Positions 48,605 through 64,000 of a DNA stretch of 64,000 nucleotides are shown in pieces. The translations under genes were made by a program, and so were the position numbers. Position 1 is the first letter of the stretch, and each line of letters starts with the position of its first letter. Under the pieces are notes generated by a model. That model was given only the letters and a program-made list of their open reading frames with translations. It was not told the DNA's origin and made no database searches. The stretch is from NCBI RefSeq assembly GCF_011320225.1, contig NZ_JAAOEN010000001.1:248001-312000 (forward strand), given 5' to 3'. The DNA is from Phytoactinopolyspora limicola. GTDB lineage: Bacteria; Actinomycetota; Actinomycetes; Jiangellales; Jiangellaceae.

Positions 48605-49780
48605 TCAGGGCTCGACGACGTCACCCCAGGGCACCTGATCGCGAATGGCCCGGCTGTACTGGGCCAGTCGTCGAGCGGCATTCACACACAGAGCCCCGCG
48701 GAGGACGCCGTCCCTGCCGAACAGGGCCACCATCGAGGTATCGTCCATCCGCTCGACGTGGACCTGCTCGGCCGCGTTCGCCCGACCCACAAAACGCATC
48801 TTCGCGTTGAACTGGTCGGACCAGAAGTATGGAACTGGAGTGTATGCCTCGTCCGCCCCCAACAGCGACGCCGCGGCGTGTCGTCCCTGTTCAACCGCGT
48901 TGGTCCACTGTTCTACCCGCATCTCCTCGTCGAACAGAGCGTTGTACCAGCGGGTGACGTCTCCGGCGGCGACGACGCCGGGCACCGATGTGCGCAGGCT
49001 TTTGTCACACACCACGCCGTCGGCCAGCCGCACGCCACTACCTTCCAGCCACCCGGTCGCTGGTGTGACGCCCACCCCGGCCACCACCAGATCGGCGGAG
49101 AGCACGGTGCCGTTGTGGAGCCGGATCTTGCTGCCACCGGCGCCAGGGTCAATGCCGTCCAGAACACTTCCGCAGTGCAGTTGCACGCCGTGTGCCTCCT
49201 GGTGCGTCCGGAACCACTGCCCTACTTCGTCGCCCAGCACCCGCGTCAGTGGCACCGGAGCAAGCTCGACGACGGAAACATCCAGGCCCATTTCGCTGGC
49301 CGTCGCAGCCACTTCGAGCCCAATGAACCCGGCACCCAGCACCACCAGGTGCCGCCCCGGTATCAGCTGCCCATGCAGGGCGACGGCATCGTCGACGGTC
49401 CGCAGGATGTTGACGGGCCCGACATCGCCCAGCGTGCTCAGCGTCTTCGGGGTGGATCCGGTGGCGAGCACCATCCCGTCGTACTCCTCCGGTGTTCCGT
49501 CATCGAGAACGACGATACGCCGAGCCGGATCCAGGGCCGTCGCACGGCGACCAAGGCGTAACTCGACGCCGGCGTCGGCATACCATTCGGGCGCCCGCAG
49601 GTGGACCTTGTCGACTTCAGGGCCCTGGTGCAGCGCCTCCTTGGATAGCGGCGGGCGGTCGTACGGCAGGTGCGGCTCGGCTCCGATCAGCACGATCTCG
49701 CCGGCGTACCCGTGGTCACGGAGTCCTTCGATCGCGTGCACGGCCGCCAGCGACGCCCCCACCACGACGACGCGGCGCAC
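48605..49780 (-). CDS. FAD-dependent ferredoxin reductase (NAD(P)H)
   Basis: 391 residues. Two Rossmann folds are seen: FAD-binding VVVVGASLAAVHAIEGLRD at the N-terminus and the NAD motif LVVLGAGFIGLEVAA near 150. PYDRPPLSKEALHQG and VVAAGDVTRWYN are typical of the putidaredoxin-reductase/BphA4 group. It should pass electrons from NAD(P)H to the small ferredoxin 3 bp upstream, which would feed a P450 or Rieske oxygenase. No such oxygenase is in the window. The gene is within the catabolic operon. Confidence 0.88.
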   Translation of the reverse strand: MRRVVVVGASLAAVHAIEGLRDHGYAGEIVLIGAEPHLPYDRPPLSKEALHQGPEVDKVHLRAPEWYADAGVELRLGRRATALDPARRIVVLDDGTPEEYDGMVLATGSTPKTLSTLGDVGPVNILRTVDDAVALHGQLIPGRHLVVLGAGFIGLEVAATASEMGLDVSVVELAPVPLTRVLGDEVGQWFRTHQEAHGVQLHCGSVLDGIDPGAGGSKIRLHNGTVLSADLVVAGVGVTPATGWLEGSGVRLADGVVCDKSLRTSVPGVVAAGDVTRWYNALFDEEMRVEQWTNAVEQGRHAAASLLGADEAYTPVPYFWSDQFNAKMRFVGRANAAEQVHVERMDDTSMVALFGRDGVLRGALCVNAARRLAQYSRAIRDQVPWGDVVEP

Positions 49781-49783
49781 GGA

Positions 49784-49987
49784 TCAGCCGTTCTCGACCG
49801 TGATGGCGCGCGCCGGGCAGACCCGGGCCGCGGAGTCCACTTGTGCACGCAGATCGTCCGTGGGGGTCTCCTGCAGCAGGATCGCTTTGCCGGCGGATTC
49901 GTCCAGGTCGAACACGGCCGGAGCTTCCATCATGCAGCAGGCGTATCCCTGACATGCCTGCAGGTCGACGATCACCTTCATGGACAT
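49784..49987 (-). CDS. [3Fe-4S] ferredoxin
   Basis: 67 residues from the ATG at 49985-49987, with GGAGG 7 nt upstream. Cluster cysteines are Cys12 and Cys18 in ACQGYACC, spaced by five residues, and Cys57 in VCPARAI. The position where a fourth Cys would make a 4Fe-4S cluster is Tyr15, so a [3Fe-4S] cluster is expected. VDLQACQGYACCMMEAPAVF is the usual P450-partner ferredoxin N-terminus. An extra Cys17 is unusual. It sits 3 bp before the reductase gene and is translated with it. Confidence 0.85.
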   Translation of the reverse strand: MSMKVIVDLQACQGYACCMMEAPAVFDLDESAGKAILLQETPTDDLRAQVDSAARVCPARAITVENG

Positions 49988-50064
49988 GTCGTGTCCTCCT
50001 CCATCCGGTTGGCCAGTACGTTCAGCCTCGGTATCGTCAGCGATCATGTGAGCGGACGGCGGTG

Positions 50065-51267
50065 TCAATGCGCCGGCTCCAGGTGCGGCAAAGCCGGCGC
50101 TACCGTGGCCAGGCGGGCCGCCCGCGGCGTGTTGCGGCTCAGCAGCGCGCGTACCTGCCCAGAGGTCACCACGGCGCTGATGCCCGGCAGGTCGCCGATG
50201 CGCAACGCTCCGAGGGCGTCGTCGGCCGTCGACCCCCATGGGGCGTCCATCACCACCAGGTCCGCGGCCGCCCCGGTCCGGAGGTAGCCGGCCGGCAGAT
50301 CCCAGGTGGCGGCGTTGTTACCGGTGGCCGCGGCCCACACCAGGGCGGGGTCGACGCCGCCCAGCGAGCTCAGCTCGGCCACCGTTTTGAGCACGCCCAA
50401 CGGCATCACACCGGTGCCGGTCGGGGTGTCCGAACCGATGACCACCCGGTGGAACTGGCCGTCGTCGAGGGCTTTGCGCAGGATCCGTACCGCTGAGCGC
50501 ACGTTGCCGGCCTGGACCAGCTGCAGCGCCATCTGGGTCTGCTCGATGACGACGTCCACACCGGCCTCGTCCAGCGAGGTCGGCCCGCCGTTGATATGAC
50601 CGCACACGTCCGGGGCCAACTCCAGCAGGTGCTCCGGCGTGATCGGCTTGCTCCCCGGGATGCTGGCCCCACCGGAGTGGCACATCACCGTGATGCCGTG
50701 CTCCTGTGCCCATCTGACCTGGTCGACGCCGTCGGACGGGTCCTCGTAGCGGCCGAAACCGAACTTGGCCAGGTGCACACCCGCGCGCTGCAGCTCCGCG
50801 AAGTCTTCACGCTGCAACGTCGGTTCGAGCACCACTGCCCCGGCATGCACCCGCATGCCGCCGGGACGCAGATTGTTGAAACACGCCCGGGCGGCGATGG
50901 CCAGCGCCTTGACGCCGGTGGCGTCGTGCGGGCGGCCGGGAGCGTGGATCTCACCCGGCGACACCACGCTGGTGATGCCGCCGTGGACGTAGCTGGCCAG
51001 GAAGTCGACGGTTTTCTGCCGCGGGGTGTAGTCACCCAGCACCACGTGGCAGTGCGAGTCGATAAGACCCGGCGCAACGGTGCTGCCACGCGCGTCGATC
51101 ACGGTATCGGCGGCGTCGATCTCCGCACCGAGCTCGCCCTCCGGGCCGACAGCCGTGATGAGCCCGTCCTCGCACAGCACGGTATCCGCGGCGTCGAGCA
51201 CCGGGTTGTTCAGGTCGCCCGAGAGCACCGTCCCGGCGCCGACGACGGCCAGCCGGGTCGCCGTCAC
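50065..51267 (-). CDS. Enamidase-like cyclic amidohydrolase
   Basis: 400 residues from the GTG at 51265-51267, which overlaps the DUF1185 stop (GTGA). The whole chain follows Eubacterium barkeri enamidase as I recall it: VLSGDLNNPVLDAAD, GDYTPRQKTVDFLASYVHGG, SPGEIHAPGRPHDA, GHINGGPTSLDEAGV and GVMPLGVLKTV. Metal ligands seen: His72 and His74 (DSHCHV), His197 (VMCHSGG), His224 (GHINGG) and Asp280 (GSDTPTG). Where the E. barkeri enzyme has bridging Glu164 (GEVGLG), this one has Lys168 (AKFGFG), which may be carboxylated as in dihydropyrimidinases. It should open a cyclic enamide or lactam ring. Confidence 0.82.
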   Translation of the reverse strand: MTATRLAVVGAGTVLSGDLNNPVLDAADTVLCEDGLITAVGPEGELGAEIDAADTVIDARGSTVAPGLIDSHCHVVLGDYTPRQKTVDFLASYVHGGITSVVSPGEIHAPGRPHDATGVKALAIAARACFNNLRPGGMRVHAGAVVLEPTLQREDFAELQRAGVHLAKFGFGRYEDPSDGVDQVRWAQEHGITVMCHSGGASIPGSKPITPEHLLELAPDVCGHINGGPTSLDEAGVDVVIEQTQMALQLVQAGNVRSAVRILRKALDDGQFHRVVIGSDTPTGTGVMPLGVLKTVAELSSLGGVDPALVWAAATGNNAATWDLPAGYLRTGAAADLVVMDAPWGSTADDALGALRIGDLPGISAVVTSGQVRALLSRNTPRAARLATVAPALPHLEPAH

Positions 51268-51851
51268 GACGCACCGCCGGCTCTGACCTCGTCGACGCTC
51301 ATTCCGCCCACCCGGGCGTTGATCCGGCCCCGGTTGGACACGGCAGCGATGATGACTAGCTCGTCCGGCAGCGGAGCGTCGGGTATCCGCATTTCGAGTG
51401 CGTCGTAGTGGCTTCTTACCCAGATCTCGTCCTTGAACGCGAGCGGCACGTCGATGATGGCGCCGGGTGCGGAGACCTTTGTCGCCGAGGTGATCCACGC
51501 CTTCCCGCCACCGATCGCCTCGCGGAACGCGTTGCCGAACACCGACGTCAACGCGGCGTTGACGTGCTCCTGCTCGCCGGAGGTACCTACCAGACCGGCT
51601 TTGCCGTAGCTCTCGACCGGTGCGCCCAGCAGCTTGGCGGCCTCGGTACCGAGGAAGGTCCCGATCTCGCCTGAAGCGTCGACCAAGAGAGTAAGGTCGG
51701 CTACGTAGCCTTGTCCCGCGAACGGATTGGGGCATACCGCGCAGACCGCGACCTTCCGCAGCGGGCCGGCGTCGTCGGACTGCCCGGCTGCCAGCCGGAT
51801 CTCCTCTACCTGGGCGAACGTCTTGCGCACGGTGAGTGCGGTGCTGCTCAT
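51264..51851 (-). CDS. DUF1185 ("amino acid synthesis") family protein
   Basis: 195 residues. SYGKAGLVGTSGEQEHVNAA, GNAFREAIGGGKAWITSATK and GAIIDVPLAFKDEIWV, then LPDELVIIAAVSNRGRINAR are the conserved blocks of PF06684. No activity is established for the family, despite its name. It overlaps the enamidase-like gene and the enoyl-CoA hydratase gene by 4 bp on each side, so it is translated tightly with them. This placement argues for a catabolic role in the ring-opening pathway, not amino-acid synthesis. Confidence 0.85.
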   Translation of the reverse strand: MSSTALTVRKTFAQVEEIRLAAGQSDDAGPLRKVAVCAVCPNPFAGQGYVADLTLLVDASGEIGTFLGTEAAKLLGAPVESYGKAGLVGTSGEQEHVNAALTSVFGNAFREAIGGGKAWITSATKVSAPGAIIDVPLAFKDEIWVRSHYDALEMRIPDAPLPDELVIIAAVSNRGRINARVGGMSVDEVRAGGAS

Positions 51852-52606
51852 CGCGATCCTCCGCTGGACGGGTGGGGGGTGGCCTGGTCGACCATCTGGT
51901 TGACCAGTTCGGCGACGCCGAGCCGGACGGCGGTCCTCGGGGGCACCGTCGACGCGACGCCGATGAACGACTTGATGGTCCGCACGATCTCCGGTTGCAG
52001 CCGCGCGAGCTCCTCGGCTAGCGCGTCGACCGAGCCGTCGAGACCCTCGTCGTCGACGATCCGGGACACGAGGCCGAGCCGCTGCGCCTCTTCCGCGTCC
52101 ACTTCCCGGCCGGTCAGCAGCAGGTCGAGCAGCGCCGTCCGGTTCAGCCGGTGCACGAAGTACGACGCCACGACGGTGGGTGCGATGCCGTGCGGCACCT
52201 CCGGGAACGCCAGCCGCGCCGAGCGGGCGGCCACCACCACGTCACACCGTCCGGCCAGGCTGGCACCGGCGCCTAGTCCCCGGCCGTGGACCACCGAAAC
52301 GGTGAGCCCGGGAAAGTCTTCGACCAGCTCGTTGACACCTTGGACGCGGGCGAACTCGGCGTTGAGGATGGCGGGGGTGGGCGGGCCGTCGAGCCTCGGG
52401 CCTTGGCGGCCGAGGCAGAAGTCCGCTCCAGCGCCACGGAGGACCAACACGCGGGTATCGGCTTCGCGGGCAGCACGGATGCACCCGGCCAGCGCATCGA
52501 GCAACGTGGCGTCGAGTTTGTTGCCGGTGTCTGGGCGGTTCAGTGTGCACGTCGTAACTGTCCCCGTGCGCGTGACCAGCACGTCGTCGTCGCTCATGGC
52601 TTTCAT
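51848..52606 (-). CDS. Enoyl-CoA hydratase/isomerase family protein
   Basis: 252 residues from the ATG at 52604-52606, chosen because it overlaps the stop of the FAD-subunit gene (ATGA) and has GAGG 8 nt upstream. The crotonase fold is clear: VLVLRGAGADFCLGRQG (oxyanion loop 1), VHGRGLGAGASLAGRCDVV (loop 2) and LAFPEVPHGIAPTVVASY. The FPEVPHG block carries one of the two catalytic acidic positions; the second glutamate of true hydratases is less clear, so isomerase or C-C hydrolase activity is possible. It should act on a CoA ester made after ring opening. Confidence 0.87.
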   Translation of the reverse strand: MKAMSDDDVLVTRTGTVTTCTLNRPDTGNKLDATLLDALAGCIRAAREADTRVLVLRGAGADFCLGRQGPRLDGPPTPAILNAEFARVQGVNELVEDFPGLTVSVVHGRGLGAGASLAGRCDVVVAARSARLAFPEVPHGIAPTVVASYFVHRLNRTALLDLLLTGREVDAEEAQRLGLVSRIVDDEGLDGSVDALAEELARLQPEIVRTIKSFIGVASTVPPRTAVRLGVAELVNQMVDQATPHPSSGGSR

Positions 52607-53481
52607 TCCGTCCACCTCATTCCGGCCCGCGCCGCCGCACGGTGAAGGGCGCGGCGCGTAGCAATTTCGAGCAGGTGCGACCGGTATTCGGCCGGTGCGT
52701 GCAGGTCGTTCAGCGGTTCGACGCCGTGTGGTGCCAGCGCCGCGATCTCATCCAGCGACGACGGGTCCGCCGCCGCTCCGAGCAGCGCGTCCTCGACCGT
52801 GGTGAGCCGGCGCGGGGTAGCCGACACGCCCGTCATGGCCACCCGGGCGTGCTGGATGGTGCCGCCCTCGATGGCCAGCGCCGCTGCCACGCCGCACAGC
52901 GCGAGATGGCTGGCCGGTTGCTCGAACTTCTCGTAGGCCGCGCCCGTGCTGGGTGGCGGCAACGGTACGTCCACGGCGGTCAGCACGTCGTCGTCGGCCA
53001 GATCCGTCGAGAAGATGCCGGTGATGAAGTCACCCAGGGCGACGACACGTTCGCCGCCGCGCGAACGGATGCGCACCTCGGCGTCGAGTGCGAGCATGAG
53101 GGCGGGCAGATCGGCGGTCGGGTCGCCGTGGGCCAGGGCGCCCCCGACGGTGCCACGAGCACGGACCTGCTGGTCGGCGATCACCTCCAGCGTGTCCGCC
53201 AGGCCGGGCAGCAGGCTCAGCGTGCGCGGACTGCGCTGCAGCTCCCGGTAACTGGTGAGAGCCCCGATGCGGACGCCGGAATCGGTGCGCCACTGGCCGC
53301 GTAGTTCGGCGGCACCGGCCAGGTCGACCAGCATGGCCGGGGTGGCGAGGCGCAGCTTCATCATCGGCAGGAGACTCTGGCCGCCCGCGAGGAGTTTGGC
53401 GTCGCCTGGGTTCTGCTGGAGTGCGGTGAATACCCCGTCGAGGCTGGATGGGCGCTCATAGGCGAACTCTGCTGGGTACAT
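52603..53481 (-). CDS. Molybdenum hydroxylase FAD-binding subunit (CoxM/XdhB-type)
   Basis: 292 residues. FAD is bound at AGGQSLLPMMKLRLA and at RARGTVGGALAHGDPTADLP; DFITGIFSTDLADDDVLTAVDVP closes the CO-dehydrogenase flavoprotein-type C-terminal domain. It passes electrons between the 2Fe-2S subunit encoded 2 bp upstream and FAD or an acceptor. Its molybdenum subunit is not adjacent but is about 7.5 kb away at 61004-63370. Cytoplasmic. Confidence 0.88.
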   Translation of the reverse strand: MYPAEFAYERPSSLDGVFTALQQNPGDAKLLAGGQSLLPMMKLRLATPAMLVDLAGAAELRGQWRTDSGVRIGALTSYRELQRSPRTLSLLPGLADTLEVIADQQVRARGTVGGALAHGDPTADLPALMLALDAEVRIRSRGGERVVALGDFITGIFSTDLADDDVLTAVDVPLPPPSTGAAYEKFEQPASHLALCGVAAALAIEGGTIQHARVAMTGVSATPRRLTTVEDALLGAAADPSSLDEIAALAPHGVEPLNDLHAPAEYRSHLLEIATRRALHRAAARAGMRWTE

Positions 53482-53483
53482 CG

Positions 53484-53993
53484 TCAGTCCGCCTTCGCCA
53501 TCGTCGGGCCCGCCTCAGCTGCTTTGCGGGCGGCGGCGACGATGTTCTGGTAACCGGTGCAGCGGCAGAGGTTGCCGTCGATACCGTGGCGGATCTCGTC
53601 GTCCGTCGGCCGCGGATTGTCGCGGAGCAGCTGCCGGACCGCCAGCACCATCCCCGGGGTGCAGAAGCCGCACTGCAACCCGTGTTCGTCCCAGAAGGCC
53701 CGCTGGACCCGGTCGAGGCCGCCGTCGGTGCTGGCCGACGCGTCTTCGATGGTCCGGACGGTGCTGCCAGCGGCCTGAGCGGCCAGGACCGTGCACGATT
53801 TCACCGCCACCCCGTCCAGCTCCACCGTGCAGGCGCCGCACTGTGTGGTATCGCAGCCAACGTGTGTCCCGGTCAGGCCAAGGTTCTCGCGCAGGAAGTG
53901 GACCAGCAGGGTACGCGCCGGCACGGTACGCACCTCGCTCCGTCCGTTGACCTCGAGATCAACGACGACGTCCGTGTTCCTCGCGGGATCCAT
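53484..53993 (-). CDS. Molybdenum hydroxylase 2Fe-2S subunit (CoxS/XdhC-type)
   Basis: 169 residues. Plant-type [2Fe-2S] ligands are Cys47, Cys52, Cys55 and Cys67 (HVGCDTTQCGACTV). The second, all-helical [2Fe-2S] site has Cys108 and Cys111 (QCGFCTPGM) and Cys143 and Cys145 (NLCRCTGYQNIV). It wires the Mo site to FAD. With the FAD subunit downstream it needs the separate large subunit to be active. Confidence 0.9.
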   Translation of the reverse strand: MDPARNTDVVVDLEVNGRSEVRTVPARTLLVHFLRENLGLTGTHVGCDTTQCGACTVELDGVAVKSCTVLAAQAAGSTVRTIEDASASTDGGLDRVQRAFWDEHGLQCGFCTPGMVLAVRQLLRDNPRPTDDEIRHGIDGNLCRCTGYQNIVAAARKAAEAGPTMAKAD

Positions 53994-54104
53994 CGCGGCT
54001 CCGATGCTCGTCGTTCTTGGTGGTTCGGTTGGTCCGGGGAGTTCATTACCCGGTGGTTCGTCACGCTACGGAAGCGGCCAGGTCAGGCACGTCCCCCTGA
54101 CGGG

Positions 54105-54536
54105 TCAATTCCGGGTCTCCGGCAGGGCGTCCGGGCTGGGATCGATTCCCTCGGCCCCGACCACCTCTCGCCACACGTCGAAACCGTGCTGGAACGCCAC
54201 CACCCCGGCCTGGGGTAACGCGATCTCGATCGCCTCGAGGATTTCCTGCGGGGTAGCACCGTGTTTGAGGGCGACCCGGATGTGGCTGGCGATGTGGTGC
54301 CGCTCGGCTCGCACGACGGTCAGGCTGAGGACGAAGAGCAGTTCCTTGGTCCGCCGGTCCAGCGACCGTTCAGCGAGGTAGGCCGCGGAGACCAGGCCGT
54401 CGGCGGCCTTCAGCACCGGCAGGTCCTGCGCCGCCATCACCTTGTGGTAGTCAAGGACGTATCCGCGGCGGCGGATCATGTCGTCGACATACTCCTGCCG
54501 CGCGTCGGCGTCATCCGCCGGCACCCGTTCCGTCAT
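54105..54536 (-). CDS. Carboxymuconolactone decarboxylase (AhpD-fold) family protein
   Basis: 143 residues from the ATG at 54534-54536, with AAGGAGG 8 nt upstream; an upstream frame to 54626 is not convincing. The fold shows in LDRRTKELLFVLSLTVVRAE, HHIASHIRVALKHGATPQEI and EALEIALPQAG-like helices. The CxxC of AhpD peroxidases is absent, so a peroxidase role is unlikely; decarboxylase or lactonase-like chemistry is possible. It stands within the catabolic operon, before the TRAP genes. Confidence 0.8.
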   Translation of the reverse strand: MTERVPADDADARQEYVDDMIRRRGYVLDYHKVMAAQDLPVLKAADGLVSAAYLAERSLDRRTKELLFVLSLTVVRAERHHIASHIRVALKHGATPQEILEAIEIALPQAGVVAFQHGFDVWREVVGAEGIDPSPDALPETRN

Positions 54537-54671
54537 CCCATCAGCCTCCTTCTCGTCGTCCTTCTTGGTGATCGTCAGCATGTTGTAGTTGTTGCTCGGC
54601 AACGAAAACCCGCTGTTGATCACCAAATCGCAACCACAATGCGCTGACGATCACCGAGGGGTCGTGCCACA

Positions 54672-55955
54672 TCAGGTGATGACCAGACCGGGCACAGCGA
54701 TGAACAGGGCGATCGCCAGGGCATAGGGGATGAAGAAGACGACCGTGCCCTTGGACACCGACACCACGTCGAGGTCTTTGTCGAGCGCACTCACGATGTA
54801 GAGGTTCACTCCCACGGGTGGTGTCACGGCGCCGATAGTGGTAACCAGCGTGACGATGATGGTGAACCAGACCGGGTCGAACCCGAGCGATACCGCCAGC
54901 GGGAAGAAGATCGGAATGCTGATCACCAGGAACCCTAGGGCGTCCATGAACGCCCCACCCACCAGGTAGATCAACACCAGGATCAACAACACCACTGTCG
55001 ACGGCACCGCGAGCCCCCCGACCCAGTCGGCCAGCTCGAACGGCAACCGAGTCAGGCTCAGGAAGCGGCCGAACACGACGGCCCCCGTGACCAGCAACAC
55101 CACCATCGCCGAGATCCGCAGGCTGTCGACGACCGCGGACCACAACGCCTGCGGGGTGAGGCTACGACGCAACACCGCGATGACGATCGCCCCGAACGCC
55201 CCGACGGCGCCCGCCTCAGTGGGCGTGAACCAGCCGAGATACAACCCCCCAATGACGAGCGCGAACAGCGCCAACGCCTCAACCACCCCGGTGAGCGCCT
55301 TGAACCGCTCCCGCCAGCTCACCTTGGGACCCGGCGGCCCGAGTTCGGGACGACGCCAGCACACCACCAGCACTGTGGCGACGAGCAGCACACCCACCAG
55401 CAATCCAGGCACCAGGGCGGCGACGAACAGCCTGGCGATCGACTGCTCGGACTGGATCGCGATGATGATCAGCGCGGTGGATGGTGGGATGAGCACACCC
55501 AGCGTGCCGCCGATGGCTACACTGCCACCGCTGAGAGCCGGCTGATACCGGTACTTCTTCATCTCCGGCAGGGACACCGCACCCATCGTGGCCGTGGTCG
55601 CCGAATTGGACCCGGAGAAAGTCGAGAAACCAATGCTGGCCAGGATTGTCGTCGCCGCGACGCCACCCGGCAGGGAGCCGATCCATTTGTAGGCCGTGGC
55701 ATACAAACGTTCGCTGATCCCGGACCTGAAGGCGATCTGGCCCATGAGGACGAACAACGGGATTACCGACAGACCATAGGAGGCGAACTGCCGGTAGGTG
55801 TCGGCAGCCAACAGCTGGATGGCGGCTGGCGCGCCGATCATGTAGGCGGCACCAACGACGCCGGCCAACATCAAGGCGAAGGCCACCGGCATCCGCAGCA
55901 TCATGATGACGAGCATCAAGACGATGCCGATGACCGCGACGAGTGTGAAACTCAC
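54672..55955 (-). CDS. dctM: TRAP transporter large permease (DctM type)
   Basis: 427 residues, the usual DctM length, from a GTG at 55953-55955 with GAGGAG 6 nt upstream. About 12 membrane segments. RMPVAFALMLAGVVGAAYM, FSTFSGSNSATTATMGAVSL and GVLIPPSTALIIIAIQS match the family, and LGFLVISIPIFFPLAVSLGFDPVW is the conserved second half. It imports an organic acid with sodium and the DctP/DctQ partners. The gene follows DctQ by 25 bp. Confidence 0.9.
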   Translation of the reverse strand: MSFTLVAVIGIVLMLVIMMLRMPVAFALMLAGVVGAAYMIGAPAAIQLLAADTYRQFASYGLSVIPLFVLMGQIAFRSGISERLYATAYKWIGSLPGGVAATTILASIGFSTFSGSNSATTATMGAVSLPEMKKYRYQPALSGGSVAIGGTLGVLIPPSTALIIIAIQSEQSIARLFVAALVPGLLVGVLLVATVLVVCWRRPELGPPGPKVSWRERFKALTGVVEALALFALVIGGLYLGWFTPTEAGAVGAFGAIVIAVLRRSLTPQALWSAVVDSLRISAMVVLLVTGAVVFGRFLSLTRLPFELADWVGGLAVPSTVVLLILVLIYLVGGAFMDALGFLVISIPIFFPLAVSLGFDPVWFTIIVTLVTTIGAVTPPVGVNLYIVSALDKDLDVVSVSKGTVVFFIPYALAIALFIAVPGLVIT

Positions 55956-55980
55956 CAGGGACTCCTCGGGGACGGCGCGG

Positions 55981-56520
55981 TCACCAGATCGTCTCCGGCG
56001 AGTCCGACCGCAGGTTGCGGCGGATGACAAGTAGGTCGTTGACGAGGGCCAGCATGAGGCCCGCCACTCCGGCCGCCAGGACCAGCGCCACGGGCCAGAA
56101 CGGCAGCCGCAGCGAGTCAGTCACGGCACCCTGGTCACGGAGGTTCAACCCATACGAGGTGAGCTGTTGCGCCAGCAAGCCGAACAGCACCACAGCCACG
56201 AGGGTGATGACACCGCCCACGTAGAGCTGGATACGCACCGGAGCACGCCGCATCACCAGATCGACGGCGATATGCGATCTCGAACGCTGCGCTTCGGCCA
56301 AGGCAAGGCCGTTCACCAGAACGGCGAGGAGCCCGACTACCTCGAACGTGCCGTGGTAGGGAGTGGCGAACATCCGCAAGCCGATGTTGCCGACCGTGAT
56401 AGTCAGCATCACGAGCAGGACCACCCCGGCGACACTCGCCAGTGCCTTCGTCACCATGTCGATACCGCCCGTCAGGCGACCGCTGGTCACGCCGGGGTTG
56501 ACCACCTCCGCGCCGGTCAC
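55981..56520 (-). CDS. dctQ: TRAP transporter small permease (DctQ type)
   Basis: 179 residues from a GTG at 56518-56520 with AAAGGAGG just upstream; another GTG at 56550 is possible. Four membrane segments: ASVAGVVLLVMLTITVGNIG, GTFEVVGLLAVLVNGLALAE, IQLYVGGVITLVAVVLFGLL and PVALVLAAGVAGLMLALVND. This is the standard DctQ layout, which docks on DctM. Confidence 0.85.
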   Translation of the reverse strand: MTGAEVVNPGVTSGRLTGGIDMVTKALASVAGVVLLVMLTITVGNIGLRMFATPYHGTFEVVGLLAVLVNGLALAEAQRSRSHIAVDLVMRRAPVRIQLYVGGVITLVAVVLFGLLAQQLTSYGLNLRDQGAVTDSLRLPFWPVALVLAAGVAGLMLALVNDLLVIRRNLRSDSPETIW

Positions 56521-56554
56521 GGTCCCTCCTTTGCCGCGGGTGCCGGTCACGTTG

Positions 56555-57652
56555 TCAGCGGTCCTCGCCGAACTCGGCCGTGTACTGCTCCTGTAGCTCG
56601 GTCATCCGGTCGAAGACCTCTTGCGGGTCGAAGCCGTTGCCCTCGACGTCGTCGGCCCAGGTGGTGATGAGCTCGCTGAGGATCTCGTCCCAGGCGTCCT
56701 GCTCACCTTCGTCGAGCTCGACGATCTCCACGCCGTGTTCCTCTTCCGCCCACTCCAGGGCGCCGCCGACGTTCTCGTCGTCGTGATATCCGGAGGCGAA
56801 CTCCATCATCTCCTCGCGCAGACCCATGATCTCCGTCTGTACGTCTTCCGGCAGGGCGGCGAACTCGCCCTCATCCATCACGGCGACGAACGTGTTCGAG
56901 ACGCCGAAGGCGTAGTCGGTGACGTAACCGACCTGCTCGGCCAGGCCGAAGTCCTGCAGCACCTCGCGGGAGGATACGTAGCCGTTGATGACACCGGTCT
57001 GCAGCCCTTCGGCGACCTCCGGCATCGGCATACCCACGGGCGACGCGCCCAGTGCCCGCAAGGCCGGCACCCCAGCTCCAGAACCGCGCACTTCCAAGCC
57101 CGCAAGGTCGTCGCGGCTGGAAACCGGACGATCCGACTGCAGACGGGCCGGTTCGGTAGTGAAGGCGGTGATGATCTCGTACCCGGCGAATTCCTGGGGC
57201 TCGAACTCGTCGAGTAGGTCGAGCAGGGTGCGGCTGGCGACCTTGGCGTTGGCGAAGCCGACTGGCAATGACACAACCGAACTCAGCGGGAAGCGGCCGA
57301 CATCGTAGGCGGGTGAATCAAGCCCGACATCGGCGATACCGCCCCTGACGCCGTCGTAGATGTCGCCGGCACCCAGCAGCGTGCCGCCGGGGAAAAGCTC
57401 GACCGAGACGTGGCCGTTGGTGCGTTCATTGAGCCGCTCGGCCCACTCCTCCATCTGGACGGCGGGGAAGGAGGCAGCAGGTGCGAAGAACGCGTACCGA
57501 AGGGTGATCTCCGCGTCACCGTCGCCGACCTGTTCGGACCCACCGTCGTCGCCGTTAGTGCCGCTGATGGCTCCCTCTCCACATGCGGCCAGCAAAGCCA
57601 CCGCGGCCACGCCCGCTACTAGTCGACTGCCGACCGATGTCGAACATCTCAT
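56555..57652 (-). CDS. dctP: TRAP transporter substrate-binding lipoprotein (DctP type)
   Basis: 365 residues from the ATG at 57650-57652, with GGAGG 8 nt upstream. VAGVAAVALLAAC is a lipoprotein signal; the mature protein starts after an acidic linker at ITLRYAFFAPAASFPAVQME. The DctP fold shows in HVSVELFPGGTLLGAGDIYDG and LEVRGSGAGVPALRALGASP. The conserved arginine that binds the ligand carboxylate should be in the VRGSG block. It captures an organic acid for the TRAP permease. Because it is the first gene after the divergent LuxR region, its promoter lies at 57653-58051. The substrate is probably the compound degraded by this cluster. Confidence 0.88.
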   Translation of the reverse strand: MRCSTSVGSRLVAGVAAVALLAACGEGAISGTNGDDGGSEQVGDGDAEITLRYAFFAPAASFPAVQMEEWAERLNERTNGHVSVELFPGGTLLGAGDIYDGVRGGIADVGLDSPAYDVGRFPLSSVVSLPVGFANAKVASRTLLDLLDEFEPQEFAGYEIITAFTTEPARLQSDRPVSSRDDLAGLEVRGSGAGVPALRALGASPVGMPMPEVAEGLQTGVINGYVSSREVLQDFGLAEQVGYVTDYAFGVSNTFVAVMDEGEFAALPEDVQTEIMGLREEMMEFASGYHDDENVGGALEWAEEEHGVEIVELDEGEQDAWDEILSELITTWADDVEGNGFDPQEVFDRMTELQEQYTAEFGEDR

Positions 57653-58051
57653 GACTCTGACCTCCATGGCTCTTCGGTTCAGATGATGAGGAGGCTTCGA
57701 CGCCTCCTACATTGGCTCACGTTGTTCGGGGAGCTCGTCGTGCAAACCGCTGCCAGATCCGAGAGACGCTACCGGCTGGGTGGGATGAGAGGTTCACCCA
57801 ATCGGGTACATCCAGGAAGCCCATCTCTTGGCCGCCGGGTGGCACGACGCGGCCGCTGACGTCTCGCTGACGTTCAGCCCGATCCCGGCGCAGAGGCATT
57901 GACCAGGCCTGGCAGGGCTGTGCATGCTGCCTGGAACCTCTGCACCCGATGCCAGACCGGGCCAAAGGGGCGAGTCTTTCCTGCTCACCCAGGGGGCTCC
58001 GTCATTCCTTCGCCCGCACAGCACCACTGATCGAAGCCAGGGTGGTCGTGG
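57653..58051. promoter_or_regulatory. Divergent control region of the TRAP operon and the LuxR-type regulator
   Basis: 399 bp without a convincing gene. AGGAGGC and GCCTCCT form a small hairpin at 57689-57708 in the dctP leader. GCTGACGT occurs twice at 57855-57862 and 57866-57873, 11 bp apart, and GCTGACGTTCAGC (57866-57878) is itself a palindrome. These are the best operator candidates for the regulator encoded at 58052. Confidence 0.5.
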
Positions 58052-59155
58052 ATGAAGTCTCGGGCAACACAAGAGCAAGACGCACGGAATCGGTTCGCCG
58101 GCGCACTCCAATCGGCGCTGACTCTCGGCGAAGTCGAGAACGCGTTCTTCGACGTCGTGCAGGATGTGATCCCGGCCGGCGGATTCGGCCTGTACCGGCT
58201 GGACACCGAGTCGGGGAACGTCGTCAGCGTGCGCGCCGAAGTGGGCTCGGACTTTCTCGACGACTACGAGGAGTACGGGCGAGATGACGACCCGGTTCTC
58301 GACTTCGTGCTGGAACAGCGCCGCCCGATCGATTCGTCGCGCGCGGTGCCGGCCGATCGGTGGACATCATGCGGGGCGCGGTCCGCGCTCGGCGTCGGCG
58401 GCTACGCCCATTCACTCGAGGCTCCCGTCGTGGTGTCCGGCACGTTCTTCGGCACCATCAACTTCGCCCGCACCGAGGAACAACCCAGTTTCGACGACGA
58501 CGATCTCATCGCCGCGCGTTTCGCCAGCGAACAGCTCAGCCTCGCCACCGAGCGTGCCCTGCGGTTCGAAAGCACTGGTCATCGCGCCAGCATGCTTGAA
58601 CACGTGCTAGACCGGATGCCGCAGGCCGTCGTCGTCACCGACCTCAGCGCACAGGTGCTGTACCGCAACCGCATCGCCCGCGACGAGCCCTGGCTGACGG
58701 TGTCGCCGGACGCGTTGGGGCGGCTCGGTCCGGTGGACGAGAGCATCGCCGAGGCGATGGAGGAATTCCGTCGGGACGGGAAACGCGTGCACACCCGCAG
58801 CCTGCGCGACCAGCGATCCGGCCGTCAGGTGATCGTCAAGTCCTACCGGTTGGCTGACAACGACGACGCCGCGGTGACCCTGATTTTCAACTGTGGCCAG
58901 GAGAAGGTCGAGCGGCTGCCGCTGTGGGACGTGTTGTCGCGGCGTGAGCAGGAGATCGCCGAACTGGTGAGCCAAGGGTTGACCACCAAGCAGATCGCCG
59001 AACGGGCCTTCGTCACCGAGAATACGGTCAAGCAGCACCTCAAGCGGGTGTTCGCCAAGACCGATGTCCGCAACCGCGCCGAGCTGATCCAGCTCATCTG
59101 GTCGTCCGGCAACCGAGGCGCCGACGGCAGCCGGGCAGGCACCGCCGCAGGTTGA
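58052..59155 (+). CDS. GAF/PAS-sensor LuxR-type transcriptional regulator
   Basis: 367 residues. The N-terminal 165 residues look like a GAF domain (TLGEVENAFFDVVQDVIPAG, VSGTFFGTINFARTEEQPSF), the next 100 like a PAS domain (EHVLDRMPQAVVVTDLSAQV), and the C-terminal HTH is LSRREQEIAELVSQGLTTKQ then AERAFVTENTVKQHLKRVFA. No phosphoacceptor domain is seen, so it probably senses a small molecule. It is the only plus-strand gene inside the catabolic cluster and separates the TRAP sub-operon from the SDR-MoL-ThDP sub-operon, both of which it probably controls. Confidence 0.85.
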   Translation: MKSRATQEQDARNRFAGALQSALTLGEVENAFFDVVQDVIPAGGFGLYRLDTESGNVVSVRAEVGSDFLDDYEEYGRDDDPVLDFVLEQRRPIDSSRAVPADRWTSCGARSALGVGGYAHSLEAPVVVSGTFFGTINFARTEEQPSFDDDDLIAARFASEQLSLATERALRFESTGHRASMLEHVLDRMPQAVVVTDLSAQVLYRNRIARDEPWLTVSPDALGRLGPVDESIAEAMEEFRRDGKRVHTRSLRDQRSGRQVIVKSYRLADNDDAAVTLIFNCGQEKVERLPLWDVLSRREQEIAELVSQGLTTKQIAERAFVTENTVKQHLKRVFAKTDVRNRAELIQLIWSSGNRGADGSRAGTAAG

Positions 59156-59207
59156 ACCCACGGATCGACCGCTTCACCTCCACTCCCCATCCCCGGATGG
59201 AGGGTGG

Positions 59208-60944
59208 TCAGTGGCCTTGGAAGTCTTGCTCAGCCCAGTACCCGACCACGTCGGGATCGATCTTCGCGTCGACGATCATCGGCCCGTCCGGCTTCTCCAA
59301 CCAGGCCGCCACCGGCGCCAGGTCAGCCACATCCCGCACTGTGACACCACCAGCGCCGGCTCCCCGCGCCAGCGCGGCGATGTCCGTCGACGGGAACCGC
59401 ACCAGTTCCAGCCCGGCACCGCTGCCGCTGAAATGGTGCACCTCGGCACCGTAGGCGGCGTCGTTGTACACGACGACGAGCACCGGAAGCCGCAGCCGGA
59501 CCAGGGTCTCAAGCTCGGAGACACTCATGAGGAATCCGCCGTCGCCCGCCGCCAGGACGGTCAGCCGATCCGGCCGAGCGATCCGCGCACCGACCGCCGC
59601 GGCCAGGCCGAGGCCGATCGATTGGAAGCCGGCGCTGGTGAACACGAACCCTTCCGGATCGGGCACCGACCAGCACGTGACCGGCCAGCCGAGAAAATGC
59701 CCACCGTCGACGACGATGGTCCGCTCCGCGGGCAGCATCGTCTCCAACTCCAGGGACAGCACCCGTGGGTGGATCACGTCGGTGTGCACACTCCCCGGGT
59801 CAACCGTCTGTGCTCGGCCGTAACGGTGAATGCGGGCGCCGACGGTTTCGGTCCGCCAGCCGGGGTACGCCGGGCCGTCATCGTCGCGGGCCGCCAGCTC
59901 GTCGAGGATCGCCCGGGCGGTCTCGTCGGAATCGCCGAGCACACCGACGTCGACCCGTTCAGTCAGCCCGAGCGCACCTGGGTCGACGTCGACCTGTACG
60001 ACGACAGCATCCGGGTTCACCAGCCGCCCGTGCCGCAGGGTCCACGTGGTGAACGAGCATCCGAATCCGATGACGACGTCGGCCTCCCGCATCAGTTCCG
60101 CTGCCTCGTCGGAGGCGAACCCGCCCGCGATCCCGAGCGTCCACGGGTCCTCACCGAAGAATCCATTCGCCACGGCCGTGGTGGCCAGCAACGCACCAAC
60201 ACGTTGCCCGAGTTTTAGCAGCGATCCGCGGGCGCCCGACACCACGGCGCCGCGCCCGGCGATGATCAGCGGCCGCTGTGCCGTCGCCAGCAGATTTGCC
60301 ACACCCTCAACCGATACCCGGGTGGGCGCAGGCACACGTGACATGCCGGTCCCGTCCGTCGCCAACCCAGCTGGCGCGGCGACGTCGACCGCCTGGATGT
60401 CCAGCGGCAGGTTAAGAACCACGGGGCGACGCTCCACCCACGCGCGACGGTAAGCCCGGATCGTGTCCTCGACCACCGTCTCCGGCCGGTGCACCTGCTC
60501 CACGGCGGCACCAGTGCGCTCGATCAGCCCAGCCTGGTCGACGTAGAAGTTGGATCTGATGGACCCGGCAGACGTCTGACCAGTGATGACGAGCAATGGC
60601 GTCCGGCTCTTCACCGCGTCCACCAGGCCGGTGATCGTGTTGGTCAGCCCCGGGCCTTGATGCACGCTGCACACGGCCAGCTCACCGGACACCCGGGTAT
60701 AACTATCCGCCATGGTGACCGCCGCGCCCTCGTGCCGCGCTCCGACGTAGCGGGCACCGGCCGCGATCAAGGCCGCTGTCGGCACGAAGTTCCCACTCCC
60801 GACGACGCCGAACACCTGTCGCACGCCGAGGCGCCACAACGTCTCACCAACCAACTGCCCGGCCGGCGTCCTACCGCTCAGGGGTGGCCCGCCAGCTTTC
60901 GGACGGGTCCGCTCGACGACTTCTCCACTGGTACGGGCTTTCAT
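59208..60944 (-). CDS. Thiamine-diphosphate-dependent enzyme (acetolactate-synthase-like superfamily)
   Basis: 578 residues from the ATG at 60942-60944, with GAAGGA 7 nt upstream. Cofactor parts are complete: catalytic Glu72 in VGARHEGAAVTMADSYTR, the Mg/ThDP motif GDGGFLMSVSELETLV with NDAAYG about 30 residues later, and SVHQGPGLTNTITGLVDA. Conserved parts cannot tell acetolactate synthase from decarboxylase, lyase or hydrolase. No small regulatory subunit or ilv genes are near, so biosynthetic acetolactate synthase is unlikely. In this setting it could cleave a 2-oxo acid or cyclic dione formed downstream of the ring opening. It follows the molybdenum-subunit gene by 59 bp. Confidence 0.82.
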   Translation of the reverse strand: MKARTSGEVVERTRPKAGGPPLSGRTPAGQLVGETLWRLGVRQVFGVVGSGNFVPTAALIAAGARYVGARHEGAAVTMADSYTRVSGELAVCSVHQGPGLTNTITGLVDAVKSRTPLLVITGQTSAGSIRSNFYVDQAGLIERTGAAVEQVHRPETVVEDTIRAYRRAWVERRPVVLNLPLDIQAVDVAAPAGLATDGTGMSRVPAPTRVSVEGVANLLATAQRPLIIAGRGAVVSGARGSLLKLGQRVGALLATTAVANGFFGEDPWTLGIAGGFASDEAAELMREADVVIGFGCSFTTWTLRHGRLVNPDAVVVQVDVDPGALGLTERVDVGVLGDSDETARAILDELAARDDDGPAYPGWRTETVGARIHRYGRAQTVDPGSVHTDVIHPRVLSLELETMLPAERTIVVDGGHFLGWPVTCWSVPDPEGFVFTSAGFQSIGLGLAAAVGARIARPDRLTVLAAGDGGFLMSVSELETLVRLRLPVLVVVYNDAAYGAEVHHFSGSGAGLELVRFPSTDIAALARGAGAGGVTVRDVADLAPVAAWLEKPDGPMIVDAKIDPDVVGYWAEQDFQGH

Positions 60945-61003
60945 CGATCCGTCCTTCGCTGATCGTGGATCATGATCGTGCACCTGGAGCCGCCTGGTGC
61001 CTC

Positions 61004-63370
61004 TCAAGCGGTCGCATCCGCTGCGCGCAGGGCCCCCCAGACGCGCTCCGGGGTGAACGGCATGTCGAGGTCACGCACACCCGCCGGGCGGAGCGCGTCC
61101 AGCACAGCGTTGGCGATCGCCGGCGTCGACCCAATCGCGCCGCTCTCCCCGATGCCCTTCACGCCCATCGGGTTGACCGGTGTGGGGGACGTCGCGCGGG
61201 CCGTACGGATCACCGGTGTTTGGCGCGCCGTCGGCACGGCGTAGTCCATCAACGACGACGTCAGCGGCTGCCCGTCGGCGTCGTAAACCACCCGCTCGAA
61301 CAGCGCCTGCGCGATGCCCTGCGCGACGCCGCCATGCACCTGCCCGTCGGCCACGAGTGGGTTGATGACGGTGCCGCAGTCGTCTACGGCAACGAAGTCG
61401 GTGACGTCGACGTGGCCGGTCAACCGGTCCACCTCCACGACGCACGCGTGTGTCCCCGAGGAGAACGTGTAGTTGGGCGGGTCGAAGTAGCCGGTCGCGT
61501 CCAACCCGGGCTCCTCGCCCTCGGCCAGCGGTTTCATCAACATCAGCGCCTTGGTCGCGATGGCGGCGAAGCCGATGCGCGTCGCCGGCACGCCCCTGAC
61601 CTGGTAGCCGCCGGACACCTGCTCGACGTCCTTCTCGTCAGCCTCCAGCAGTTCCGCCGCCCATCGCTTCGCCTTGGCCACCACTTTCCGGCAGGCCAGC
61701 AGAACAGCGGTGCCGCCGACCGCCGCGCTACGCGAACCGAACGTGCCGAACCCGAACGGGGACGTCTCGGTGTTGCCGTAAATGATCGAGATGTCGTCAT
61801 ACGGTATCTGCAGCGCGTCCGCCGCCACCTGTGCGAACGTCGTCTCGTGTCCCTGCCCGTGCCCGCACGTGCCCATCGAGATGGCGACCTTGCCGGACGG
61901 GTGGACCCGCACCGACGCACTCTCCCACAGGCCCGGCGAGCCTTCCATCGCGGCTACTGCTGACGGGGTCACCCCACCGATCTCGACGTACGATGCCACC
62001 CCCACCCCGATCAGCCGTCCGTCGTCATTACCGCTGCGCTGCAGGGCACGCACGTCGTTGTACCCGATCTCGTCCAGCGCCGTCCGCAGGGCGGCCGCGT
62101 AGTCGCCGCTGTCGTAGTCCAGCCCGGTCGGCGTGTGCCACGGGAACGCGTCGGCCGGGACGTAATTACGACGACGCACCTCAGCCGGGTCCAGGCCGAG
62201 CTCCGCGGCCACCTCGTCGATCAGCCGCTCGGTGTAGTACGTCGCCTCCGGCCGCCCGGCGCCCCGATACGGACCGGTGGGTGTGGTGTTGGTGAACACC
62301 CCGACGATCTCCACGTCGATCGAATCGAAGGCGTAACTCTGCGGCAGCAGCGGCCCGGTGCGCCCAATGATGGTTCCCGACGAGTTGGGGTACAGGTACG
62401 CGCCCATGTTCCCGAGCACGCGCCCCCGCATGGCGGTGATCACGCCGTCGTCGTCGAAGGCCACCTCCAGGTCGGCGACGTGATCGCGGCCGTGTGTCGT
62501 CGCGAGGAAACTCTCGGTGCGCTCCTCGACCCACTTGACCGGCCGGCCCAGATGCTTGGCAGCGTAGGCGATCGCGGCCTCGTCGGGATACATCGGCTCC
62601 TTGGCGCCGAACGCACCGCCGACATCACCCGCGTCGACTCTGATCAGGTGTTCCGGCATCCCCAGCACCTGGCCGATGAACCACCTGGTGTGGTGCGGAC
62701 GCTGAGTGGTGATCCAGACGTCCATGACCTGCTCGTGCTGGTCGTACGCTGCGATCATGCCGCGCGGCTCCATCACGAACGGCGCTACCCGGTGGTTCAC
62801 CAGGCGGCGACGTAGGCGGTATGGCGCGGCGTCGAAGGCCGCAGCGGTGTCGCCACCGGTGTAGGCGGTGCGGAAGCAGCAGTTGTCGTCGAACCCTTCA
62901 TGCAGGACGGGCGCGCCGTCAGCAACGGCGTCTTCAACCAGACACACCGCCGGGAGGGTCTCGTAGGACACGTCGACCGCTTCGGCACCGTCGGCGGCGG
63001 CCGCGGGTGATTCGGCGACGACGACGGCCACCGGGTCACCCACCCAGCGGACCGTCCCCGACGAGAGCACCGGCAGCTCCGGCAACGGCACACCAAGGCT
63101 GGGCGGCTGCCGGATCAGCGGGATCGGGTGTACGTCGTGGAGGTCGTCGGCGGTGATGACGGCAACCACCCCGCTCATCGCCAGTGCGGTGCTGGTGTCG
63201 ATGCCGAGCAGCCGCGCGTGCGCCACCGTGCTGCGCACGAAATGCGCGTACAGCTGCCCCTGCAGGGTCCGGTCTTCGAGGAAACGTCCGCGTCCGGTCA
63301 GGAACCGCGGATCCTCGCGTCGCCGGACCGCCTGCCCGACGTACGGCTGCGGGTGCTCGGTGGTCGTCAT
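61004..63370 (-). CDS. Molybdenum hydroxylase large subunit (xanthine dehydrogenase/CoxL family)
   Basis: 788 residues. Mo-cofactor motifs are present: RVDAGDVGGAFGAKEPMY, GPYRGAGRPEATYYTE and the C-terminal catalytic Glu in VKGIGESGAIGS. PYRGAGR in place of AYXCSFR excludes a form-I CO dehydrogenase; it is of the N-heterocycle or aldehyde hydroxylase kind. The large subunit alone lacks FAD and Fe-S sites, so it must join the CoxM/CoxS-like subunits at 52603-53993. It probably hydroxylates a carbon next to a ring nitrogen using water. Its ATG overlaps the SDR stop by 4 bp. Confidence 0.88.
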   Translation of the reverse strand: MTTTEHPQPYVGQAVRRREDPRFLTGRGRFLEDRTLQGQLYAHFVRSTVAHARLLGIDTSTALAMSGVVAVITADDLHDVHPIPLIRQPPSLGVPLPELPVLSSGTVRWVGDPVAVVVAESPAAAADGAEAVDVSYETLPAVCLVEDAVADGAPVLHEGFDDNCCFRTAYTGGDTAAAFDAAPYRLRRRLVNHRVAPFVMEPRGMIAAYDQHEQVMDVWITTQRPHHTRWFIGQVLGMPEHLIRVDAGDVGGAFGAKEPMYPDEAAIAYAAKHLGRPVKWVEERTESFLATTHGRDHVADLEVAFDDDGVITAMRGRVLGNMGAYLYPNSSGTIIGRTGPLLPQSYAFDSIDVEIVGVFTNTTPTGPYRGAGRPEATYYTERLIDEVAAELGLDPAEVRRRNYVPADAFPWHTPTGLDYDSGDYAAALRTALDEIGYNDVRALQRSGNDDGRLIGVGVASYVEIGGVTPSAVAAMEGSPGLWESASVRVHPSGKVAISMGTCGHGQGHETTFAQVAADALQIPYDDISIIYGNTETSPFGFGTFGSRSAAVGGTAVLLACRKVVAKAKRWAAELLEADEKDVEQVSGGYQVRGVPATRIGFAAIATKALMLMKPLAEGEEPGLDATGYFDPPNYTFSSGTHACVVEVDRLTGHVDVTDFVAVDDCGTVINPLVADGQVHGGVAQGIAQALFERVVYDADGQPLTSSLMDYAVPTARQTPVIRTARATSPTPVNPMGVKGIGESGAIGSTPAIANAVLDALRPAGVRDLDMPFTPERVWGALRAADATA

Positions 63371-64000
63371 ATGCGGCCTCCGTCGGTGTTGATGACCACT
63401 CCGGTGACGATGCGAGCGGCGGCCGGGTCAGCCAAGTACACGTACGCTCCAGCGTGATCGACGGGTTCAGCCAGCGTCTGAAGAGCGTTACCAGCTGTGA
63501 TCCGCTGGTCGCGGCCGTCGACCCGATCAGCGGTCAGGTCCTGATCCAACGTGCCGAGGCCGCCGAGCTTCGTTCCCGACGTTCCGCCCGGTGCTACCCC
63601 GTTCACGCGCACCTGCGGGGCCAGATCCTTGGCCAAGTGAGTGACCACACCACGCAGCGCCCATTTCGAGCTGCCATACAGCACTCCGCCGCCCTCGGGA
63701 TAGAACGCGGACGCGGAGAGGGTGAGCGTCACCGACCCGTTGGCCGCACGCAACGATGGGTAGGCGATGTTGATGGCCAGCAGACTGCTGAGCACGTTGG
63801 TCCGCCAGATCTCCTCGGCCGCCGCACAGACGTCGGCCGAGGTGAGCTCCCGGAGGGAAGCGTAGTAGTCGAACACGCCAACCCCGCAGGTCAGGTGGTC
63901 GATTCCGCCGCCGGATGTCGCCGCGGCCCGGACCACCTCGGCGACGTCGTCGGGACACGTAGCGTCGCCATGAATAACGTGGACGGCGTCGGGATGGTCG
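63367..64000 (-). CDS. Short-chain dehydrogenase, cis-dihydrodiol-dehydrogenase-like (5' part beyond the window)
   Basis: About 210 residues are visible; the N-terminal cofactor fold lies past the right edge. The catalytic motif is SSKWALRG after YG (Tyr-x3-Lys), and RVNGVAPGG and DGGRI follow as in classical SDRs. NVLSSLLAINIAYPSLRAAN, SASAFYPEGGGVLYGSSK and AKDLAPQVRVNGVAPGGT resemble BphB/HcaB-type cis-dihydrodiol dehydrogenases. The usual NNAG or GNAG segment is replaced by CGVG in HLTCGVGVFDYY. It should oxidise a cyclic alcohol with NAD. It is co-translated with the molybdenum subunit through a 4-bp overlap. Confidence 0.82.
   Translation of the reverse strand, partial: DHPDAVHVIHGDATCPDDVAEVVRAAATSGGGIDHLTCGVGVFDYYASLRELTSADVCAAAEEIWRTNVLSSLLAINIAYPSLRAANGSVTLTLSASAFYPEGGGVLYGSSKWALRGVVTHLAKDLAPQVRVNGVAPGGTSGTKLGGLGTLDQDLTADRVDGRDQRITAGNALQTLAEPVDHAGAYVYLADPAAARIVTGVVINTDGGRI

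Follow-up and report, generated by a model that had tools for sequence, protein, structure and literature searches.

The locus described here would, in our somewhat confident view, enable the cell to take up and degrade a quinoline-type acid, meaning a fused bicyclic N-heteroaromatic carboxylic acid, and its conserved run of approximately 21 genes looks like a complete import and breakdown route for a two-ring, nitrogen-containing aromatic acid. The window, a stretch of 64,000 nt corresponding to bases 248001–312000 of a 1.16 Mb contig in a host genome of 6.59 Mb, cuts the gene of a short-chain dehydrogenase (SDR), and the minus-strand run extends 5.4 kb past base 64000, with seven further genes after the SDR on the same contig, the last of which is CoxG (Table 1). 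The first-pass annotation proposed a catabolic cluster that hydroxylates and opens a carboxylated N-heterocycle or lactam; the genes it named all lie where it placed them and score above Pfam cut-offs, and the catabolic cluster as such is supported. The cluster was misread because the window ended before the dioxygenase, LigAB and aldolase genes. The Rieske dioxygenase, LigAB and hydratase-aldolase encoded beyond the window end indicate a fused two-ring substrate, so that of the earlier substrate proposal an N-heterocyclic acid probably stands, whereas a nicotinate-like monocycle or lactam is not supported.

Table 1. Genes of the cluster in window coordinates; positions past the window end (64000) are the position in the following stretch (L004) plus 64000. 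G001, G005 and G039 are other genomes carrying related genes.
Feature	Position	Strand	Basis
BTAD/AAA regulator, directly behind reductase	45455–48592		kept in G001 (83%), G005 (70%), partly G039 (49%)
Ferredoxin reductase of dioxygenase	48605–49780	-	Pfam Pyr_redox_2 + Reductase_C
Small ferredoxin, C-x2-Y-x2-C ... CP	49784–49987	-	Pfam Fer4_15 + motif; start chosen
Enamidase-family amidohydrolase	50065–51267	-	match to 2VUN; start chosen
DUF1185 / AA_synth protein	51264–51851	-	Pfam
Crotonase-family protein (ECH)	51848–52606	-	Pfam ECH_1
CoxM-type FAD subunit	52603–53481	-	Pfam
CoxS-type [2Fe-2S] subunit	53484–53993	-	Pfam; cysteine motifs
CMD-like (carboxymuconolactone-decarboxylase-like) protein	54105–54581	-	Pfam CMD
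TRAP DctM	54672–55955	-	Pfam
TRAP DctQ	55981–56550	-	Pfam
TRAP DctP binding protein	56555–57667	-	Pfam; solved-structure relatives
GAF-LuxR regulator, likely of cluster	58052–59155	+	Pfam; kept in G001, G005
ThDP enzyme, acetolactate-synthase-like	59208–60983	-	Pfam, further family comparison
CoxL-type molybdenum subunit, PYRGAGR loop	61004–63370	-	Pfam, NCBIfam, loop motif
cis-Dihydrodiol-dehydrogenase-like SDR	63367–64167 (past 64000 outside window)	-	sequence comparison
Small ORF, 93 aa	64164–64445 (L004:164–445)	-	no Pfam match
Dioxygenase beta	64602–65138	-	sequence comparison
Dioxygenase alpha	65138–66454	-	sequence comparison
Hydratase-aldolase (DHDPS-family)	66458–67492	-	sequence comparison
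LigB	67513–68346	-	sequence comparison
LigA	68346–68618	-	sequence comparison
CoxG	68590–69411 (end approximate)	-	sequence comparison

With the start codons chosen in the analysis, 14 of the 20 minus-strand gaps from CoxG to the reductase gene measure -4 to +25 bp, including five 4-bp overlaps, and the others are -29, 77, 90, 111, 156 and 1540 bp. The 1540-bp gap contains the plus-strand LuxR-type gene, and the run may thus comprise two operons. For the amidohydrolase, a start at 51267 rather than 51735 is most likely, because the longer reading frame extends into the DUF1185 gene and the alignment with the enamidase starts at residue 8 of the 400-aa protein. Judged by its position and conservation, the BTAD/AAA regulator probably controls the cluster. 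On the other side of CoxG, a divergent plus-strand catabolic run (L004:5693–16109; 69693–80109 in continued window coordinates) encodes an NMT1-type binding protein, an ABC ATPase and permease and a GntR regulator, together with Ldh_2, SDR, FAD monooxygenase, cupin, RidA-type, FAH and Amidohydro_2 proteins; no comparable run occurs in the stretches of G001 and G005 that were examined.

The hydratase-aldolase scored 255.7 bits with PhdJ and 216–217 bits with two trans-o-hydroxybenzylidenepyruvate hydratase-aldolases, and below 48 bits with dihydrodipicolinate synthases. The dioxygenase alpha subunit is nearest to naphthalene dioxygenase 2b1x (402.6 bits), followed by phthalate 3,4-dioxygenase (345.1 bits), and the beta subunit passes the NCBIfam model of the 3-phenylpropionate/cinnamate dioxygenase beta subfamily (167.5 against a cut-off of 145). 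The nearest relatives of the SDR are dihydrodiol dehydrogenases and the nearest NCBIfam models of the reductase are dioxygenase ferredoxin reductases, both with scores below the respective cut-offs, and LigB belongs, as a distant member, to the class III extradiol dioxygenases. Together with the ferredoxin and reductase, the genes past the window are, as read from these relationships, a naphthalene-type upper pathway with extradiol cleavage that would feed the enamidase/DUF1185 pair. Plasmid pROB02 of Rhodococcus opacus B4, whose cluster we take to be a naphthalene-type (nar) upper pathway, carries, in this order, alpha, beta, a 90-aa ORF, an HcaB-type SDR and a DHDPS-family aldolase. The order alpha, beta, small ORF, SDR is common to both, though the aldolase precedes alpha in our cluster and follows the SDR in B4, the identity is approximately 47% for alpha and 50% for the aldolase, and only in our cluster is the upper module joined to LigAB, enamidase, DUF1185, CoxLMS and TRAP genes. 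The 93-aa ORF is homologous to the small ORF of B4 (41% over 56 residues, E 1e-13 as a single-comparison value); its product, encoded between beta and the SDR, accompanies dioxygenases of this type and has no name of its own.

Ser234, Thr238, His239, Arg292 and Gln307 are present in 20 of 20 aligned core alpha subunits, an alignment made without L026 and L041 (frame partly broken), L031 (an unrelated dioxygenase), L059 and L079, whereas B4 has Pro, Phe, Ala, Ala and Ala at these positions; the polar residues would suit a polar substrate. Among matches covering at least 70% of the query, pairwise distances of the enamidase correlated with those of the aldolase (0.91), SDR (0.905), DUF1185 (0.87) and alpha subunit (0.41), as raw values uncorrected for kinship. 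In L026 and L041 the dioxygenase parts are spread over more than one frame, L031 carries a different, unrelated dioxygenase (31%), and in L037 no dioxygenase was found within 20 kb. As the correlation of 0.41 against 0.91 and the cases of L031 and L037 show, the dioxygenase is the least coherent part of the cluster, a point against the quinoline-type reading.

Considering gene families, gene order, conservation and co-occurrence, from which we infer the substrate, the order of steps and the roles of CoxLMS, ECH, CMD, ThDP enzyme and DUF1185, we propose the following scenario. The TRAP transporter would import the acid, the Rieske dioxygenase, supplied through ferredoxin and reductase, would form a cis-dihydrodiol on the benzo ring, and the SDR would re-aromatise it. 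LigAB may then cut the diol adjacent to the ring fusion, so that an oxygen sits next to the ring nitrogen and a 2-pyridone lactam results; extradiol cleavage of 7,8-dihydroxyquinoline at the ring fusion would thus oxygenate the carbon beside nitrogen and give the 2-pyridone without a molybdenum hydroxylase. The hydratase-aldolase would release pyruvate and leave an ortho-formyl-pyridone, from which CoxLMS, perhaps with the crotonase-like protein, would remove the formyl group; in place of CoxLMS, most relatives carry an enzyme resembling 2,6-dihydroxypseudo-oxynicotine hydrolase, which may serve this step. The enamidase would hydrolyse the lactam, DUF1185 perhaps handling the enamine, and the expected products are ammonia and a dioxo-acid whose further breakdown may involve the ThDP enzyme. 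With a 4-hydroxyl group, as in kynurenate, the lactam would resemble the enamidase substrate in being a vinylogous enamide, and the formyl group, flanked by two oxygens, would be a good leaving site for a C–C hydrolase.

The assignment of the amidohydrolase as an enamidase relative is borne out by its best solved relative, the Eubacterium barkeri enamidase 2VUN (E 1.3e-114, 386 bits, nearly full length over residues 8–389), the next match scoring 26 bits. His72, His74, His197, His224 and Asp280 are the same residues in the 2VUN alignment, at positions among which we presume the metal ligands to lie. However, the E. barkeri enzyme acts in nicotinate fermentation and has a Glu, whereas the cluster protein stands in an aerobic oxygenase context and has Lys168 opposite that Glu. 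Membership of the family does not fix the reaction, since an amidohydrolase of the 4-hydroxypyridine pathway, 28% identical to enamidase, is reported to act as a dioxygenase (PMC7356986). From its sequence and setting, the cluster protein probably acts as an enamidase on a ring derived from an N-heterocycle. It could alternatively be a lactonase in the breakdown of a carbocyclic or oxygen-containing bicyclic acid, in line with the naphthalene-type relatives of the upper module; we regard this as distinctly unlikely, as the sole solved family member is an amidase for N-heterocycles and the hydrolase that replaces CoxLMS in relatives indicates hydroxypyridines.

A scan of named genomes with the enamidase alignment gave 311 relatives, of which the best 80 were kept, with ORFs of at least 50 codons considered in their loci. 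Among these 80, the 18 loci with an enamidase at least 72% identical carry DUF1185 (18), ferredoxin (17), aldolase (16), LigB (16), reductase (15) and dioxygenase alpha, beta and SDR (14 each), whereas the other 62, many of them on short contigs, carry DUF1185 in 34, a dioxygenase in four, LigB in two and the aldolase in one. L024 has its remaining genes beyond the flank examined, and L040 stops at a contig edge. In 42 of the 80, no more than 3 kb separates DUF1185 from the enamidase. The core recurs in Mycobacterium, Streptomyces, Amycolatopsis, Aeromicrobium, Leucobacter, Rhodococcus and others, and plasmid records add Rhodococcus sp. USK13 and Thermomicrobium roseum as carriers. The T. roseum plasmid (L109:6881–23786) holds a thermophile version with CoxL, two crotonases, a CoA ligase, a ThDP enzyme and a VOC-type dioxygenase-like protein; no LigAB was found within its 29 kb. 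In the enamidase loci L044, L049 and L054, which have no dioxygenase, DUF1989, isochorismatase-type, class II aldolase or aminotransferase genes occur instead, suggesting, from these gene contents, a different enamide pathway. On the conjugative plasmid pAt of Agrobacterium vitis (L110:11399–15206), likewise without the dioxygenase, relatives of DUF1185 and enamidase adjoin genes for an ABC importer and an FAD monooxygenase.

G001 and G005 (L024, Phytoactinopolyspora halophila, of the same family as the host, Jiangellaceae) retain the run from CoxG to the reductase plus the BTAD-type regulator in unchanged order, with an insertion of approximately 2.8 kb between the CoxL and ThDP genes in G005. 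Most of the 18 loci with an enamidase at least 72% identical show no CoxLMS in the DNA examined, and a DctP at least 45% identical accompanies the core in six of them. G039 has a smaller set, with no CoxLMS, ThDP or TRAP genes within the 37 kb examined. DUF1185 was present in 7 of 60 genomes and an enamidase at least 75% identical in 5 of 393 genomes of the class, the host included in both counts, and the cluster is thus an accessory trait.

The molybdenum enzyme is complete, as had been claimed, with CoxL, CoxM and CoxS all passing Pfam and CoxL encoded separately from CoxM and CoxS. Hydroxylation by this enzyme as the activating step is not supported: CoxL, CoxM and CoxS are absent from the DNA examined at 16 of the 18 loci, and the enzyme is therefore not a universal first step. 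Aerobic CO dehydrogenase was rejected as the identity of CoxL (634.6 against a cut-off of 991.15, and 620.3 against 950; loop PYRGAGR, which differs from the CO dehydrogenase loop). Its top-scoring model is glyceraldehyde dehydrogenase, below the cut-off (667.8 against 790), a match in keeping with an aldehyde as substrate. A scheme in which CoxLMS hydroxylates a nicotinate-like monocyclic acid or lactam and the enamidase opens it, with the dioxygenase module serving another purpose, would agree with loci of Desulfobacterota and Rokubacteria in which enamidase relatives adjoin CoxLMS-type genes (e.g. L065, L090, L092 and L094). We consider it very unlikely, however, because the dioxygenase, LigAB and aldolase remain associated with the enamidase clade across many genera, in varied orders and mostly without CoxLMS, and because of the below-cut-off aldehyde-type match of CoxL.

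An alpha/beta hydrolase of 352–392 aa occurs in 17 loci, and its nearest solved relative is 2,6-dihydroxypseudo-oxynicotine hydrolase 2JBW (96.6 bits), a hydroxypyridine C–C hydrolase; in relatives, this alpha/beta hydrolase would stand in for CoxLMS. The host genome holds no close homologue of it (best 28% over part). In 27 genomes or records selected for carrying all or part of the core, the hydrolase was found at 69% identity or more in 18 and a full-length CoxL at 50% or more in six (G000, G001, G005, G073, G077 and the T. roseum plasmid), with no overlap between the two groups. G075 has, besides the hydrolase, a CoxL fragment (55%) that lies on a different contig, and G078–G080 have neither at these thresholds; in L058 and L059, a CoxL at 45–47% lies upstream of LigA. 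The crotonase-like gene accompanies CoxLMS, occurring at 40% or more in only L024, L038 and L048 among the best 80 of the 311 loci. These distributions are suggestive of the hydrolase and CoxLMS being two ways to deal with the aldolase-derived formyl group, though with few lineages involved the exchange is not proof.

DctP, DctQ and DctM are all present, confirming the TRAP importer. The nearest solved relatives of DctP are 4pgn/4pgp, 4n6d and 4nap (226–228 bits; next, 134 bits), of which 4pgn, 4pgp and 4nap were presumably solved with indolepyruvate, indoleacetate and tryptophan, ligands for which a literature look-up gave no confirmation. These relatives count in favour of the quinoline-type reading, and their ligands would also favour an indole-type acid, for which the ring-cleavage logic is identical: dioxygenation and then cleavage beside the ring fusion would lead to a pyrrolinone lactam, and its opening by the enamidase to a 2-oxoglutarate-like product. 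As the hydrolase found in place of CoxLMS is similar to a hydroxypyridine enzyme, and as we know of no indole-acid route with these enzymes, this substrate seems unlikely to us.

Among quinoline-type acids, kynurenate is our guess for the best single candidate. Kynurenic acid is a product of tryptophan, and to our knowledge its bacterial breakdown has long been known biochemically without its genes; in work of the 1960s, glutamate, alanine and acetate were reportedly obtained from it. The ring dioxygenase, dihydrodiol dehydrogenase and extradiol dioxygenase genes are co-located here, a combination common to other bicyclic pathways. The Pseudomonas route has the same kinds of enzymes, including an extradiol dioxygenase acting at the ring fusion, but proceeds by reduction whereas the route proposed here proceeds by an aldolase. 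Tentatively, and with some doubt, the cluster may encode the complete degradation of kynurenate, or of quinaldate via kynurenate: the dioxygenase, SDR and LigAB would be the 7,8-dioxygenase, dihydrodiol dehydrogenase and 7,8-dihydroxykynurenate 8,8a-dioxygenase that have lacked genes, followed by aldolytic loss of pyruvate, formyl removal by the molybdenum enzyme or C–C hydrolase, and opening of a dihydroxypicolinate by the enamidase and DUF1185. The branch after LigAB (aldolase, formyl removal, enamidase and DUF1185) would, if kynurenate is the substrate, be undescribed. The glutamate among the reported products is unexplained by this route and counts against it. Tryptophan dioxygenase is present in 13 of 22 carriers (absent from nine) and in four of four non-carrier relatives, never beside the cluster, and given this distribution kynurenine-pathway genes lend no support to kynurenate. 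Neither a characterised orthologue nor, in the openly licensed literature, any gene for kynurenate, quinaldate or quinoline degradation was found, and one title of the 1960s kynurenate series is cited in the reference list of PMC11354673.

The ring-fusion cleavage logic would also fit a phenazine-type acid, and Actinobacteria degrade phenazines. The first enzyme of phenazine acid breakdown is a UbiD-type decarboxylase, however, and UbiD is lacking in the host genome and present in 8 of 24 records, at least approximately 80 kb from the cluster; a phenazine-type acid thus appears extremely improbable.

The DUF1185 protein passes Pfam PF06684 (202.1 bits against a cut-off of 27). Its structure predicted from the single sequence was unusable (pLDDT 35.6); with 50 sequences, drawn from 59 homologues retained after dropping matches shorter than 150 residues or beginning after residue 35, the pLDDT reached 95. 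The only firm fold matches of this model are DUF1185 structures, and weaker ones, all with Z below 8, include AIR synthetase (7.1), Rid (6.2), chorismatase (6.1), AroH chorismate mutase (5.6) and cyclic amide hydrolase (4.9). A crystal study describes the DUF1185 fold as a variant of Bacillus chorismate mutase and proposes a role in amino-acid metabolism (PMC2954203). TgnF of trigonelline degradation is homologous to the DUF1185-type HcdD according to another study, which found no effect of HcdD (PMC7913881). From the neighbouring gene and the modelled fold, a role in enamine handling is our guess, and DUF1185 is not indispensable, as Rhodococcus sp. USK13 has none in its 33 kb.

If the proposed scenario is true, a naphthalene-type upper pathway is joined in this cluster to enamidase-type ring opening, which would give enamidase an aerobic role and link the uncharacterised DUF1185 family to N-heterocycle catabolism. 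Two interchangeable solutions for formyl disposal would then exist among the carriers, and the cluster would provide candidate genes for benzo-ring degradation in acids of the quinoline type, among them kynurenate, a metabolite of tryptophan that attracts wide interest.
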